This document shows positions 7,702 through 42,661 of a stretch of 64,000 nucleotides of DNA, piece by piece. The notes below the pieces were generated by a model that saw only the letters and a program-made list of their open reading frames with translations, was not told the origin of the DNA and did not search any database. A program made the translations under genes and the position numbers. The stretch spans positions 86,001 through 150,000 of the forward strand of contig NZ_JACXWX010000010.1 in the NCBI RefSeq assembly GCF_014764505.1, in the 5' to 3' direction. This stretch comes from Phormidium tenue FACHB-886 (GTDB taxonomy: Bacteria > Cyanobacteriota > Cyanobacteriia > Elainellales > Elainellaceae). Numbering within the stretch: the stretch's first letter is position 1; the number at the start of each line of letters is the position of its first letter.

Positions 7702-7797
7702 ATGTCAATATCAGATACTCAAGTCTATGTGGCACTCGTGGTTGCCTTAATTCCTGCTGTCATGGCTTTTCGGTTGTCCACCGAGCTTTATAAATAA
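7702..7797 (+). CDS. psaM: Photosystem I subunit XII (PsaM)
   Basis: The 31-residue product starts MSISDTQVYVALVVALIPAV and ends FRLSTELYK, matching PsaM nearly throughout. It is a single-helix thylakoid membrane subunit that helps trimerise and stabilise photosystem I. The ATG at 7702 is preceded by TAGGAG at about 7686-7691. It is monocistronic, with a strong hairpin 80 bp downstream. Confidence 0.95.
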   Translation: MSISDTQVYVALVVALIPAVMAFRLSTELYK

Positions 7798-34120: not shown

Positions 34121-34729
34121 TTAAAGCGGAATGAGTTCTGGGTAATGTAAGACCAACTCGTCGTCGGTCAGCTCATCGCCAAACTGGGCAGGAGAATAGT
34201 GAACTTGGATGGCGCGGAGCTTGCGGTCGTAATGCAAATTGATGATGGCTTTGAGACCGGCGCGGAGTGCACCCAGGCTGGCAAGGTCAGTTTCGAGGGC
34301 GCGAACTTCACCTTCATAGGCAACGGTTATCATCACGACTACGTTCTGCGTAATCGGGATCGTTAAAGGTTCTTCGGCAGCTTCATTTCCAAGACTGCTG
34401 CCATAGCGCTGGGCAGAGTCTGTAAATAGCTCAGTGACGTAGGCCTCGGCTTCCCCTTCTTCATAAAACACATCGCCTTCATTGGCAGCAGCTTGCCAGT
34501 AGGTGTCGAGCTGTAGCAAACTTTGACAGATATCTACCAATCCTTCGCCCAAAATATCAAGATTGCTGCCTTCAATCTCATCTTCAGAGTCGATCGCCTG
34601 TCGAGCTGCGCTGTTAAGCACGCCCAGCAGGGGAGCAACTTCAGAACCTGCTAGATGCACAAAAATGCGACAGACTGTAATGCGAGTTTTGCCGCTAATT
34701 CGATTGAAGCGATCCCGCCAAGCATCCAT
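34121..34729 (-). CDS. DUF1517-family protein
   Basis: The 202-residue product shows the conserved DUF1517 end: VVVMITVAYEGEVRALETDL, LHYDRKLRAIQVHYSPAQ and a C-terminal PELIPL. The N-terminal half (about 1-100) is acidic and mostly helical. No signal or membrane segment is seen, in contrast with many DUF1517 proteins that have a Gly-rich membrane region; the adjacent Gly-rich secreted protein may be a partner. Function is unknown. Confidence 0.75.
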   Translation of the reverse strand: MDAWRDRFNRISGKTRITVCRIFVHLAGSEVAPLLGVLNSAARQAIDSEDEIEGSNLDILGEGLVDICQSLLQLDTYWQAAANEGDVFYEEGEAEAYVTELFTDSAQRYGSSLGNEAAEEPLTIPITQNVVVMITVAYEGEVRALETDLASLGALRAGLKAIINLHYDRKLRAIQVHYSPAQFGDELTDDELVLHYPELIPL

Positions 34730-37238: not shown

Positions 37239-37263
37239 TCAGTCTGAGGGCTACTCAGACTGA
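37239..37263. terminator. Bidirectional hairpin between convergent genes
   Basis: A 9-bp stem TCAGTCTGA/TCAGACTGA with a 7-base loop lies between the GT39 gene and the oxidoreductase. The right arm includes the oxidoreductase stop codon. Confidence 0.6.
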
Positions 37264-38226
37264 TATCACCTGTCCTGTTTCTGCCGATCGGCGGGCAGCA
37301 TCCGCAACGCGCAGGGCATGAAGGCTAGACTCGATCGCCACATAAAGGGGTGCACCTGTGGTGAGGTGATCCAGCACGATTGCAGTGTCTTTGGCGAATA
37401 GTCCCCGCCGGCTGCCCATGTCAAGATCGCGAGTTTCGGTAGGCAGCACTAGCTTGCCTGTTTCGCCATCGATCAGAATTGCACCTTGGGCAGCATGAAT
37501 TTGTAGAGTGCGATCGCTCTGCCAAATGGCGTCGCCTTTCCCGTATACCACGTCTGCAGCCAAGCCACTGGCAAACTTGAGCTGGGCAGTGCAGAGGCAG
37601 GCAGTGTAAAAATCTGCTGGACTGCCTCCCCAAAACCGCGCCTGACTGCTGACACTAGCCACTCGCCCAAACAAATTTGTGAGTCGATGAATCCGCGATA
37701 CTGCCCCCATCAGCGGAAAGCCAAACAGCTGTGGGTGATAAGTCCACTTTTGGGGGGCGGGTCGCTGCGGCACAAGGTTCGTATAGCGGACGTAAAACGG
37801 CTCACCCACCTCTGCTAGCACCCCCTGAATTGCCAGGTGAATACCGCTCAGCAGCTCAATATGCTCGACATGCAGCAATGTTTCTTGAGCCGCTGCTAAC
37901 TTGATCAACGCCTCTGCCTCCCCCAGATCCAGCGAAAGGGGATATTCCACGACAACATGCTTGCCGTGTTGCAGAGCGGCCTGCACGATCGTCCCATGCT
38001 CAGCATTAACATTGGAAATCACAACCAGATCGATGTCCGATCGCCCCACTAGCTCCTGCCAGCTTGAAACAGCTTCCGCTTCATAGGTCTGGCTAAAAGC
38101 TTGCGTTTTATCAGCGGCATTACCTGCCACACCAACCAATTGCGATCGCGGATCTGCCTGGAATGCCTCCGCCCTAATTTTGGCAGCGTAGCCCGTCCCT
38201 ACTAACCCAACGCGAATAGACTTCAT
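37255..38226 (-). CDS. Gfo/Idh/MocA-family oxidoreductase
   Basis: The 323-residue protein has an N-terminal Rossmann fold (IRVGLVGTGYAAKIRAEAFQ), the VVISNVNAEHGTIVQAALQ stretch and HVVVEYPLSLDLGEAEALI, with the family's usual EKP replaced by EYP. The C-terminal alpha/beta domain completes the fold. Replacement of the lysine suggests altered catalysis. Similarity of this kind is also seen in biliverdin reductases, so bvdR is a possible identity; this is not settled from sequence reading. The ATG at 38226 is preferred to an upstream codon at 38235. Confidence 0.75.
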   Translation of the reverse strand: MKSIRVGLVGTGYAAKIRAEAFQADPRSQLVGVAGNAADKTQAFSQTYEAEAVSSWQELVGRSDIDLVVISNVNAEHGTIVQAALQHGKHVVVEYPLSLDLGEAEALIKLAAAQETLLHVEHIELLSGIHLAIQGVLAEVGEPFYVRYTNLVPQRPAPQKWTYHPQLFGFPLMGAVSRIHRLTNLFGRVASVSSQARFWGGSPADFYTACLCTAQLKFASGLAADVVYGKGDAIWQSDRTLQIHAAQGAILIDGETGKLVLPTETRDLDMGSRRGLFAKDTAIVLDHLTTGAPLYVAIESSLHALRVADAARRSAETGQVISV

Positions 38227-38415: not shown

Positions 38416-38487
38416 TTAGTCAACGTAGCGCACGAACAAAGCGTAAGCTAAAGCATAAGTTGTAAACAGTAAAAGTACGGCTGGCAT
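38416..38487 (-). CDS. 23-residue single-helix membrane peptide
   Basis: An ATG at 38487 is preceded by a perfect Shine-Dalgarno AGGAGG eight bases upstream. The frame encodes MPAVLLLFTTYALAYALF followed by a short VRYVD tail and a TAA stop. It is one hydrophobic helix with a charged C-terminal end, the layout of small photosynthetic or respiratory complex subunits. I do not recognise it as PetL, PetN, PsaI, PsbT or another named subunit. Confidence 0.6.
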   Translation of the reverse strand: MPAVLLLFTTYALAYALFVRYVD

Positions 38488-38863
38488 ACTATTTCCCTCC
38501 TGGGATGTTGGATTTGAAGCGTAAGAATGAAAGTGGGGAATTTAACTGTATCCGGGTGCTTACTGTAGAGAACACCTATCTATTCCTACCGTAGTGCAGA
38601 GATCAGGGGATCACTTCGGTCAACCGGCTTACCCAATCGGGTGATTTTTAAGCCGACCGTCGATCCTGACTCCAGATTTTCTGCTGCTAGAGCTAAATGA
38701 TTCGAAGAAGACCCAGTAGAGGTTGCAAATCTCCTTAAGCTAAAGTATTTCAAAGGCTGGCATAAGTTCCCGACCAAAAACTGGTCTAACCTATTGTCTC
38801 CTGTCGCTGTCCATCGCCTATTCTCAAAGCAGCGCTACTCAAGCATCCAAACATCAGAGAACC
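38488..38863. other. Divergent promoter region
   Basis: It lies between the 23-residue peptide gene and the kinase gene and should contain both promoters. An open frame at 38586-38777 on the minus strand has no family support and no ribosome-binding site. Confidence 0.5.
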
Positions 38864-40357
38864 ATGAATTCGCTAGTCGGGAAAGCATTGCAGGGAGGGA
38901 AGTATACCCTGGAGGAGCCGATCGGGCAGGGCGGCTTCGGTGTGACCTTTCGGGCAACTCATCACTTCCTAAAACAAACGGTAGTGATCAAAACGCTAAA
39001 CCCAACCACCCAAAGCAACCCGCAATACGTAGAATTCGAGCGGCAGTTCCGTGATGAGGCCCGCCGATTAGCAATGTGCGTCCACCCCAATATTGTGCGG
39101 GTCAACGACTTCTTCATCGAAGAAGACGTCCCGTATCTGGTGATGGACTACATTCCAGGGCTCACATTAGAGCAAGTTGTTTTTCCAGATCAGCCGCTCA
39201 CCGAATCGATCGCTATCCATTACATCCGGCAGATTGGCGCAGCGCTAGAAGTTGTTCATCGAAACGGCTTGCTGCATCGAGACGTGAAGCCACAGAACAT
39301 CATCCTGCGGCAGGGTACTCAAGAAGTTGTGCTGATCGATTTTGGTATCGCTCGTGAATTTACACCGGGTGCAACCCAAACCCACACCAGTTTAATCTCA
39401 GCGGGCTATGCGCCGATTGAGCAATACATCGCCCATGAAAAGCGTACCCCTGCTACCGATGTTTATGGGCTTGCTGCTACCCTCTACGCCCTGCTGACTG
39501 CACAAGTACCGATTGCATCCATCCTGCGCGATCGCCAACCGATGCCTGCTCCCCGCGATCTGCAACCCCAGCTCAGTCCGGCAGTGAATCAAGCTGTGAC
39601 GCGGGGGATGGCTATAGATGTACGCTATCGCCCTGAAACCGTCTCGGCCTGGCTCGATCTGTTGCCTAACCGTCCGATTACCGAACCGGGCACAGGCCAT
39701 ACTCAGCCTCCCATTCCCCCATTTGCGGTGGCGGCACCATTAAAGCCAGCGATCCCCAATCCTTCCACGATGGCGACATTAGCGGTTAGCCCGCGTCCAC
39801 CGCGCCCGCCGGTTGCCCTATCTACGGCAGAAACGGTAGCTCCCGCCAAAGCCATTACTGCGCCTTCACCTGCCCGTCCCCGACGAGGTTGGATTTTGGC
39901 GCTAATGGGAATAGCGGCGATCGTTGGGATCGCTGTGTCAGCCATTATCATGGTGCTGTCACAGTCGCAGCAGCAATCGCCCCTACTAGAGCCTGAGGCG
40001 CCCTCGCTAGACGCACCCGCAGCACAGCCTTCAGAGACAGTATCACCTTCAGACGTAGAAAGCCCAGAAGTGCTTGAGCCATCTCCTTTGGAAAGCCCGG
40101 AAGAAACGCCCTCGCCCATAGACACCCTACCGCCTGAGTCTTCTTCTGATGAATCGCCGCTGACCCTACCAGAAGACTTTGAGCCAGATGCCCCAGTGGA
40201 TCTTGACGCACCGCTGATCGACTCACCGCCGCCGCGGTCTAACAGGAACTCCAACAGAGACAGAGACAAAGATGATAAAGAGGAAGAGCCACGCCGGACG
40301 TTGCCCAATTCTTTGCGACGAGAACAAGAAGCAGAGAACCGCCGAAAAGAAGATTAG
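38864..40357 (+). CDS. Serine/threonine protein kinase with transmembrane helix
   Basis: The 497-residue protein has a Hanks-type kinase domain (about 14-270): glycine loop GQGGFG (21-26), catalytic Lys in VVIKTLNP (about 43), [10 protein letters not shown] (about 140) and [10 protein letters not shown] Pro-rich juxtamembrane segment precedes one hydrophobic helix ([19 protein letters not shown], about 345-366). The outer part is Pro/Ser/Glu-rich and ends in an Arg/Glu/Lys-rich tail. The acidic, disordered extracytoplasmic region has no recognised sensor domain. Targets are unknown. Confidence 0.9.
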
Positions 40358-42437: not shown

Positions 42438-42474
42438 AGCCTGTACCTCGCAGAAACTTGTGTAATGGTTGCGA

Positions 42475-42610
42475 TCGGCGGGCGTTCTGACTTAGAAAGA
42501 CAAGCCCTGTAGCCCAAGACCTGCATCTCAACACAGCTGCGGGACAGCGCCGGATTCACACCGGACTTTCCCCCTTACTTCCAACGGCTGCTCCCCGTTG
42601 AAACCGAACG
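42475..42610 (-). promoter_or_regulatory. Cobalamin (adenosylcobalamin-class) riboswitch
   Basis: On the minus strand the leader contains GGGGGAAAGTCCGGTGTGAA, then TCCGGCGCTGTCCCGCAGCT, then GTG, and about 60 bases later AGTCAGAACGCCCGCC. These are the conserved core blocks of the cobalamin riboswitch in the right order. It should shut off the DUF1636 gene when cobalamin is abundant. Confidence 0.93.
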
Positions 42611-42661
42611 GCTTTCCTAATATAGCGGTTCCTCACCGTGTAATGTACAGTTTTTTGTGGT

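Follow-up and report, generated by a model that had tools for sequence, protein, structure and literature searches.

A conserved 23-codon gene for a putative single-helix membrane microprotein in filamentous cyanobacteria, with an indirect pointer to photosystem II assembly

The question raised by this locus is whether a very short open reading frame (ORF) of Phormidium tenue FACHB-886 is a gene and, if so, what kind of protein it would supply. In the window, by which we mean the whole 64-kb stretch of DNA analysed, the minus strand from 38487 to 38416 carries 23 codons for MPAVLLLFTTYALAYALFVRYVD, opening with ATG (38487–38485) and closed by a TAA stop. The hexamer AGGAGG at 38496–38501 on the same strand, read directly from the sequence, is a Shine-Dalgarno (SD) element with a spacer of 8 nt to the ATG. 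The best 17 residues of the peptide have a mean Kyte-Doolittle value of 2.13, and the C-terminus is mostly acidic in family members. The initial annotation had placed a micro-gene with an SD, a start, a stop and a one-helix core at 38416–38487; these coordinates proved exact, the strand being minus, and the reading of the sequence together with the relatives described below bore out the rest.

Such ORFs are rare by chance. Requiring an ATG, 18–35 codons, a strong SD and a hydrophobic core leaves 3 ORFs in the 64-kb window, whereas 20 first-order shuffles of its sequence averaged 0.1. The three are the MPAVLLLFTTYALAYALFVRYVD ORF, one at 7702 on the plus strand and one at 34725 on the minus strand. 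The SD-preceded ORF at 7702–7797 (+) encodes the 31 residues MSISDTQVYVALVVALIPAVMAFRLSTELYK, which we take to be PsaM, and it therefore serves as a positive control for this filter. In its own genome (8.9 Mb, 255 contigs), the DNA of the micro-gene is single-copy at E up to 0.001.

Relatives and selection on the reading frame

The initial annotation had proposed a search for the peptide in other cyanobacteria and had counted a lack of conservation there against the gene; the search found relatives. The 23 residues alone gave 5 weak matches (E 0.06–0.77), besides their own genome, in 36 genomes of the same family. Each of the five has its own ATG (one with a second ATG one codon upstream) and 27–33 codons, and the SD is AGGAG in four and GAGG in one. 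Profile searches found a member in 12 of 36 genomes of the window's own family, in 10 of 42 of a second family (to which Tildeniella and Stenomitos belong), and in 36 of 217 of a third, Nostoc-like family (which holds Nostoc, Calothrix, and Fischerella), the relatives across these three filamentous families being 23–33 residues long. For the Nostoc-like family, 31 of the 36 genomes were read out (G403, G406, G428, G543, and G544 were left out), giving 33 places in 12 genera, and all 33 have an ATG start and a length of exactly 23 residues. Of the 55 loci tabulated, 48 have an AGGAG in the 20 nt that precede the ATG (30/33 Nostoc-like, 18/22 others); L194 and L076 have no recognisable SD. A phylum-wide sample of 386 genomes yielded 2 clear members, a count that excludes six marginal matches; both were already known and lie within the three families.

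Concerning the search thresholds, in one profile search the ATG was in register in every match at E up to 3.5e-6, the one following being at 0.0045, and a later profile retrieved true members down to E 0.006–0.013; with profiles this short, divergent members may therefore be missed. Five g175 members in the latter range were kept because the ATG, the SD, and the 23 codons were present. A match in G092 (E 0.003–0.006) was rejected as a member, having no in-frame ATG, as were other matches above E of about 0.003 in two of the earlier profile searches, which were partial and, where read out, without the ATG/SD layout.

A scan of 84,980 named genomes with a DNA codon pattern (an SD, an ATG, and codons spelling F-x-[GSTA]-Y-[AG]-x4-hydrophobic-F-[VIM]) returned 35 stretches, for which we estimated a chance expectation of about 11 by hand arithmetic. 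The peptide was encoded in all 22 of the stretches labelled cyanobacterial and in none of the 13 others. Ten of the 22 are re-finds of members known when the pattern was composed; the 12 new ones carry 23-residue versions and belong, by their genus names, to the Nostocales. Strains of Fischerella, Calothrix, Tolypothrix, and Nostoc are among the carriers, including Fischerella muscicola PCC 7414 and F. thermalis PCC 7521.

Two genomes carry additional copies. G206 has a tandem pair on one strand, MFEVAAFLMGYALICALFVSQVKPLT and MLEVIIFLTGYALICALFVSLIDYPNQKPVR (G206:C1:3177466-3177666; L046, L075), and G481 has three dispersed copies (L198, L199, L200) with common upstream blocks and different flanking genes.

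Selection was measured in the relatives. In 25 of the 33 Nostoc-like loci, forming five sets of close relatives whose pairs are not independent, pN/pS was 0.24 in frame versus 1.24 and 2.03 when the frame was shifted by one or two bases. Same-genus pairs outside this family point in the same direction (L063/L065, pS 0.40 and pN 0.10; L072/L073, pS 0.22 and pN 0.12). Based on the pattern scan and pN/pS, a chance ORF was rejected. A leader peptide would be suggested in the window by the same-strand GFO/IDH/MocA oxidoreductase gene (37255–38226, minus), which starts about 180–190 nt past the ORF; however, the frame is conserved across genera and none of the 18 other loci compared has an oxidoreductase homologue close to the ORF, so that this reading was rejected as well. 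We regard a chance ORF or an oxidoreductase leader peptide as having hardly any probability left.

In alignments of 31 and 38 members that were anchored on neither residue, Y11 never varies and F18 hardly does. In a further alignment of 51 distinct blocks, only F18 is informative since the rows were anchored on Y, and it is present in 49. The conserved residues are F/L7, F8, G/S10, Y11, S/C15, and F18; the helical periodicity of conservation was not significant (permutation fraction 0.28). From these comparisons of sequence, we consider that the ORF is almost certainly a functional, translated gene belonging to an undescribed family of putative single-pass membrane microproteins in filamentous cyanobacteria.

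The copies in G206 and G481 raise the possibility that the hydrophobic peptide belongs to a duplicating cassette, for instance one akin to a type I toxin-antitoxin system, and that an overlapping RNA silences it. A short hydrophobic peptide, a stand-alone cassette, patchy presence, the tandem copies in G206, and the three dispersed G481 copies with their common upstream blocks would suit such a cassette, but the purifying selection on the frame and the length of 23 in 33 of 33 places across 12 genera argue against it. The mostly acidic C-terminus of this peptide also contrasts with type I toxins, which are typically basic. One Nostoc-like query gave no plasmid or phage match, a weak test for a query this short (23 residues), a comparison with plasmids at the DNA level led no further, and the DNA pattern found no member in viral contigs, where its two matches encode unrelated proteins. 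On these tests, weak as they are, with no members in plasmids, phages, or viral contigs, a phage or plasmid origin was rejected, and we rate the cassette reading as distinctly improbable.

Known families and the nearest described proteins

The impression given by the initial annotation, that the peptide matches none of the small photosystem or b6f subunits, holds in Pfam, NCBIfam, and the PDB. For 38 members, NCBIfam returned no family, and Pfam returned no photosystem or b6f family and only scattered weak matches, the best being DUF7512 (E 0.0015, in 2/38). No PDB sequence matched at E up to 10, and the PHROGs matches were ten unnamed families, each with a single member, at a best E of 0.003. 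PsaM, PsbX, PetN, PetL, and similar subunits have one hydrophobic helix of about 25–35 residues, often with a gene of its own, and are in this respect alike; the peptide differs from them in having no family match, no solved chain, and a patchy presence. Its patchy occurrence speaks against a core role in a photosystem or in b6f and favours an accessory one.

Psb34 (Ssl1498/Tsl0063) resembles the peptide as a small protein with one hydrophobic stretch, and in Nostoc-like genomes its genes precede a PsrR1-type element of the kind seen after 12 of the 33 Nostoc-like copies of the micro-gene. It is longer, at 56 residues, has a polar N-terminal part that is conserved, and shares no profile homology with the peptide: homology was rejected at an hhalign probability of 1.1% over 7 columns.

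The nearest described kind is a cyanobacterial light-induced microprotein such as SliP4/HliR1. The accessible parts of the two reports describe SliP4 (HliR1) as a light-induced Synechocystis peptide of 37 residues with a likely transmembrane region (PMC5126843, PMC12850537). Both peptides are small, likely transmembrane, and recently recognised, and SliP4 is linked to light acclimation. In contrast, SliP4 is longer, is RpaB-controlled, lies upstream of sodB, and has no homologues beyond Synechocystis reported in those parts of the literature. No HLR1 box above chance was found before the micro-gene.

Among the papers listed, open-licence PMC titles and the beginnings of abstracts yielded no literature on the peptide. 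In their accessible parts, one paper states that some predicted sRNAs of heterocystous cyanobacteria may encode small proteins (PMC4734099), and another reports 26 novel genes in Nostoc 7120 (PMC8557916). The peptide may already be listed among those small-protein sRNAs or novel genes.

Neighbouring genes and upstream elements

Across 19 loci of the first two families and a further 36 (33 of them Nostoc-like), the micro-gene stands alone, and its neighbours mostly differ between genera. The divergent Ser/Thr protein kinase of the window (38864–40357, plus), which lies outside the micro-gene, has a counterpart at 51–53% identity in G003 and G016, where it is likewise divergent from the ORF. A scan of named genomes by way of the kinase led to no confirmed locus. 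Three genomes from two genera (G445, G542, and G545) have an ORF of 156–160 residues upstream, and G445 and G545 also have a second common ORF downstream. Within the window, a cobalamin riboswitch (Rfam RF00174, 54.4 bits) was observed at about 42460–42623 on the minus strand (L081 10081–10244).

As a lone gene with mostly changing neighbours, the micro-gene is probably expressed from its own upstream region. The presumed promoter region in the window is the intergenic region at 38488–38863, common to the micro-gene and the kinase gene, where a consensus scan found no sigma-70-type promoter. In the Nostoc-like family, the block AATAGTCTTTTTAGCAGATG lies 85–98 nt before the ATG in 29 of 33 loci, with 15–20 of its 20 letters; 0.5% of shuffles score 15 or higher. 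The remaining loci (L198, L201, L202, and L208) score 12, which is background, and the block is visible there in the alignment with a one-base gap. No wider regulon emerged from 20 Nostoc-like genomes at up to 3 mismatches, with 197 matches versus 271 for the reversed pattern. Among the matches listed, whose positions span 15 of the 20 genomes (one in part), every one with 0 or 1 mismatch sits upstream of the ORF.

A different block, TACCCCTnnTGGGTGATGC, recurs upstream in the other two families, 11 of 21 loci scoring at a level that at most 2% of shuffles reach; its consensus was drawn from the loci scored, and one of the 11 (L068) has it at a different place. The window matches 11 of the 17 consensus letters, which 10% of shuffles reach, and the other strand scores equally, so that the block is not significant there. 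A possible, weak counterpart is a short inverted repeat, ACCC-N4-GGGT, at 38629–38644, about 150 nt upstream of the ATG, which also scored as a terminator-like site on the plus strand. A scan of 55 upstream regions with the HLR1 (RpaB) motif found no exact box, and relaxed matches were much as in shuffled sequence; control through HLR1 was rejected on this basis. In addition, a near-palindrome around TAGTAGACATGTTCTA recurs upstream of the ORF in L074, L077, L080, and L091 (genus g70), and TAGACAT is repeated in Nostoc-like upstream regions; either could be a regulator site.

The PsrR1-type 3' element and a possible role

In Nostoc-like loci, a match to Rfam PsrR1 (RF02701) was found directly downstream of the ORF. 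The accessible part of PMC12850537 presents PsrR1 as an established light-acclimation sRNA of Synechocystis. We built a model of the element from 25 copies located away from the ORF and applied it, at E up to 1, to 669,291 bases made up of 54 ORF loci and the window. All 15 hits were on the ORF's strand and downstream of it, 12 of them from -3 to 214 nt after the stop codon; these 12 loci represent 12 of 33 Nostoc-like loci and 7 genera. The other three hits lie 0.8, 2.5, and 5.1 kb from the ORF, in one genus. At close range, no such element turned up in the window, in any of the 21 loci from the other families, or in 21 Nostoc-like loci out of 33. Two further genomes, G543 and G544, have close copies in the Rfam search.

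Under strict filters and with E up to 1, PsrR1 matched in 41 of the 58 ORF-bearing genomes, 30 of which have a match above the Rfam cut-off; Nostoc-like genomes have up to 12 matches each. The other two families showed weak matches or none, and the window's genome gave none. Control genomes showed weak matches in 4 of 14, none above the cut-off. The within-genome similarity of the RNA copies gave no clear signal (0.745 versus 0.727, permutation fraction 0.07), and miRNA matches obtained in L043 at a relaxed Rfam threshold were read as chance.

The copies away from the ORF indicate what else carries this tail. Taking the best copy per genome among the matches listed, 16 of 27 such copies begin where a psb34-like gene ends, the stop codon starting 0–9 nt before the element. 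These genes encode a protein of 56 residues; the two proteins scanned both pass the NCBIfam Psb34 cut-off, and the single PDB relative is Tsl0063 (E 0.003). In G404 and G405, the micro-gene is followed, 2.5 and 5.1 kb further on, by a psb34-like gene with its element. An in-frame stop interrupts the psb34-like frame before the PsrR1-type copy of L234 (G445:C1:3038714-3038792), and this gene therefore looks broken. As the elements are multi-copy (L212–L241) and 16 of 27 sit at psb34-like stops, some PsrR1 annotations in Nostoc-like genomes may be mRNA 3' ends. The accessible part of PMC8136909 describes apcZ-resembling sequences that adjoin a gene of the CAB/ELIP/HLIP superfamily, which is possibly a related phenomenon.

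Psb34 is named as a photosystem II factor (NCBIfam; PMC9458560, accessible part). Through the tail common to its gene and the micro-gene, the peptide is thus tied, if indirectly, to photosystem II assembly and to light acclimation. This tail is the only functional pointer, and an indirect one; terminators can be re-used, and the pointer does not extend to the locus in the window, which has no such element. We tentatively favour, at somewhat less than an even chance, an accessory, non-core thylakoid-helix factor in light acclimation or in photosystem II assembly or repair. The helix would insert into a membrane, probably the thylakoid, and pack through F/L7, F8, G/S10, Y11, S/C15, and F18 against a larger membrane protein. 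Its expression would probably be set by the micro-gene's own conserved upstream region, perhaps under light control, and in Nostoc relatives the message would run into the PsrR1-type 3' element, as after psb34, a photosystem II assembly factor gene. The suggestion of the initial annotation that the peptide is a subunit or regulator of a thylakoid complex thus survives in part: the element found in 12 of 33 Nostoc-like loci, as after psb34-like genes, lends it indirect support, and the patchy presence speaks against a standard subunit.

The absence of the tail from most loci would also fit a peptide that serves as accessory helix in some non-photosynthetic membrane complex, the RNA tail being a re-used terminator. 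CydX of cytochrome bd oxidase and KdpF of the Kdp potassium pump are likewise tiny single helices beside large membrane complexes, and the size, single helix, and patchy presence of the peptide would suit an optional respiratory or transport complex. However, neither KdpF, CydX, nor any other membrane-subunit family was matched in Pfam or NCBIfam, and no kdp, cyd, or comparable operon was recognised among the listed flanking genes, few of which were named by profile. We consider this alternative unlikely, though worth keeping in mind.

The tight same-strand linkage of ORF and element in 7 genera, and the established standing of PsrR1 in Synechocystis, could instead mean that the transcript is mainly a PsrR1-type small RNA, the peptide being secondary or the ORF gating the RNA. 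The element after 12 of 33 Nostoc-like ORFs matches RF02701 or the model from other copies; PsrR1 is described as a non-coding sRNA, whereas here the copy directly follows a coding ORF. Since the peptide is conserved where no such element is at hand, the window included, and selection acts on the reading frame, we give this dual-function or RNA-first reading a low probability.

A bolder form of the favoured accessory-factor role, which we hold to be rather doubtful, would make the micro-gene bifunctional. One transcript would supply both the 23-residue thylakoid helix for photosystem II assembly or repair and a PsrR1-type RNA that represses light-harvesting mRNAs, and psb34 would behave likewise, so that one promoter would deliver the protein arm and the RNA arm of the response.

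If the present reading is true, a membrane protein family under selection has gone unannotated in many filamentous cyanobacteria. The RNA tail common with psb34 would then be a concrete link to photosystem II assembly and PsrR1-type regulation, and would suggest that some PsrR1-type copies are the 3' ends of small membrane-protein genes and not stand-alone sRNAs.
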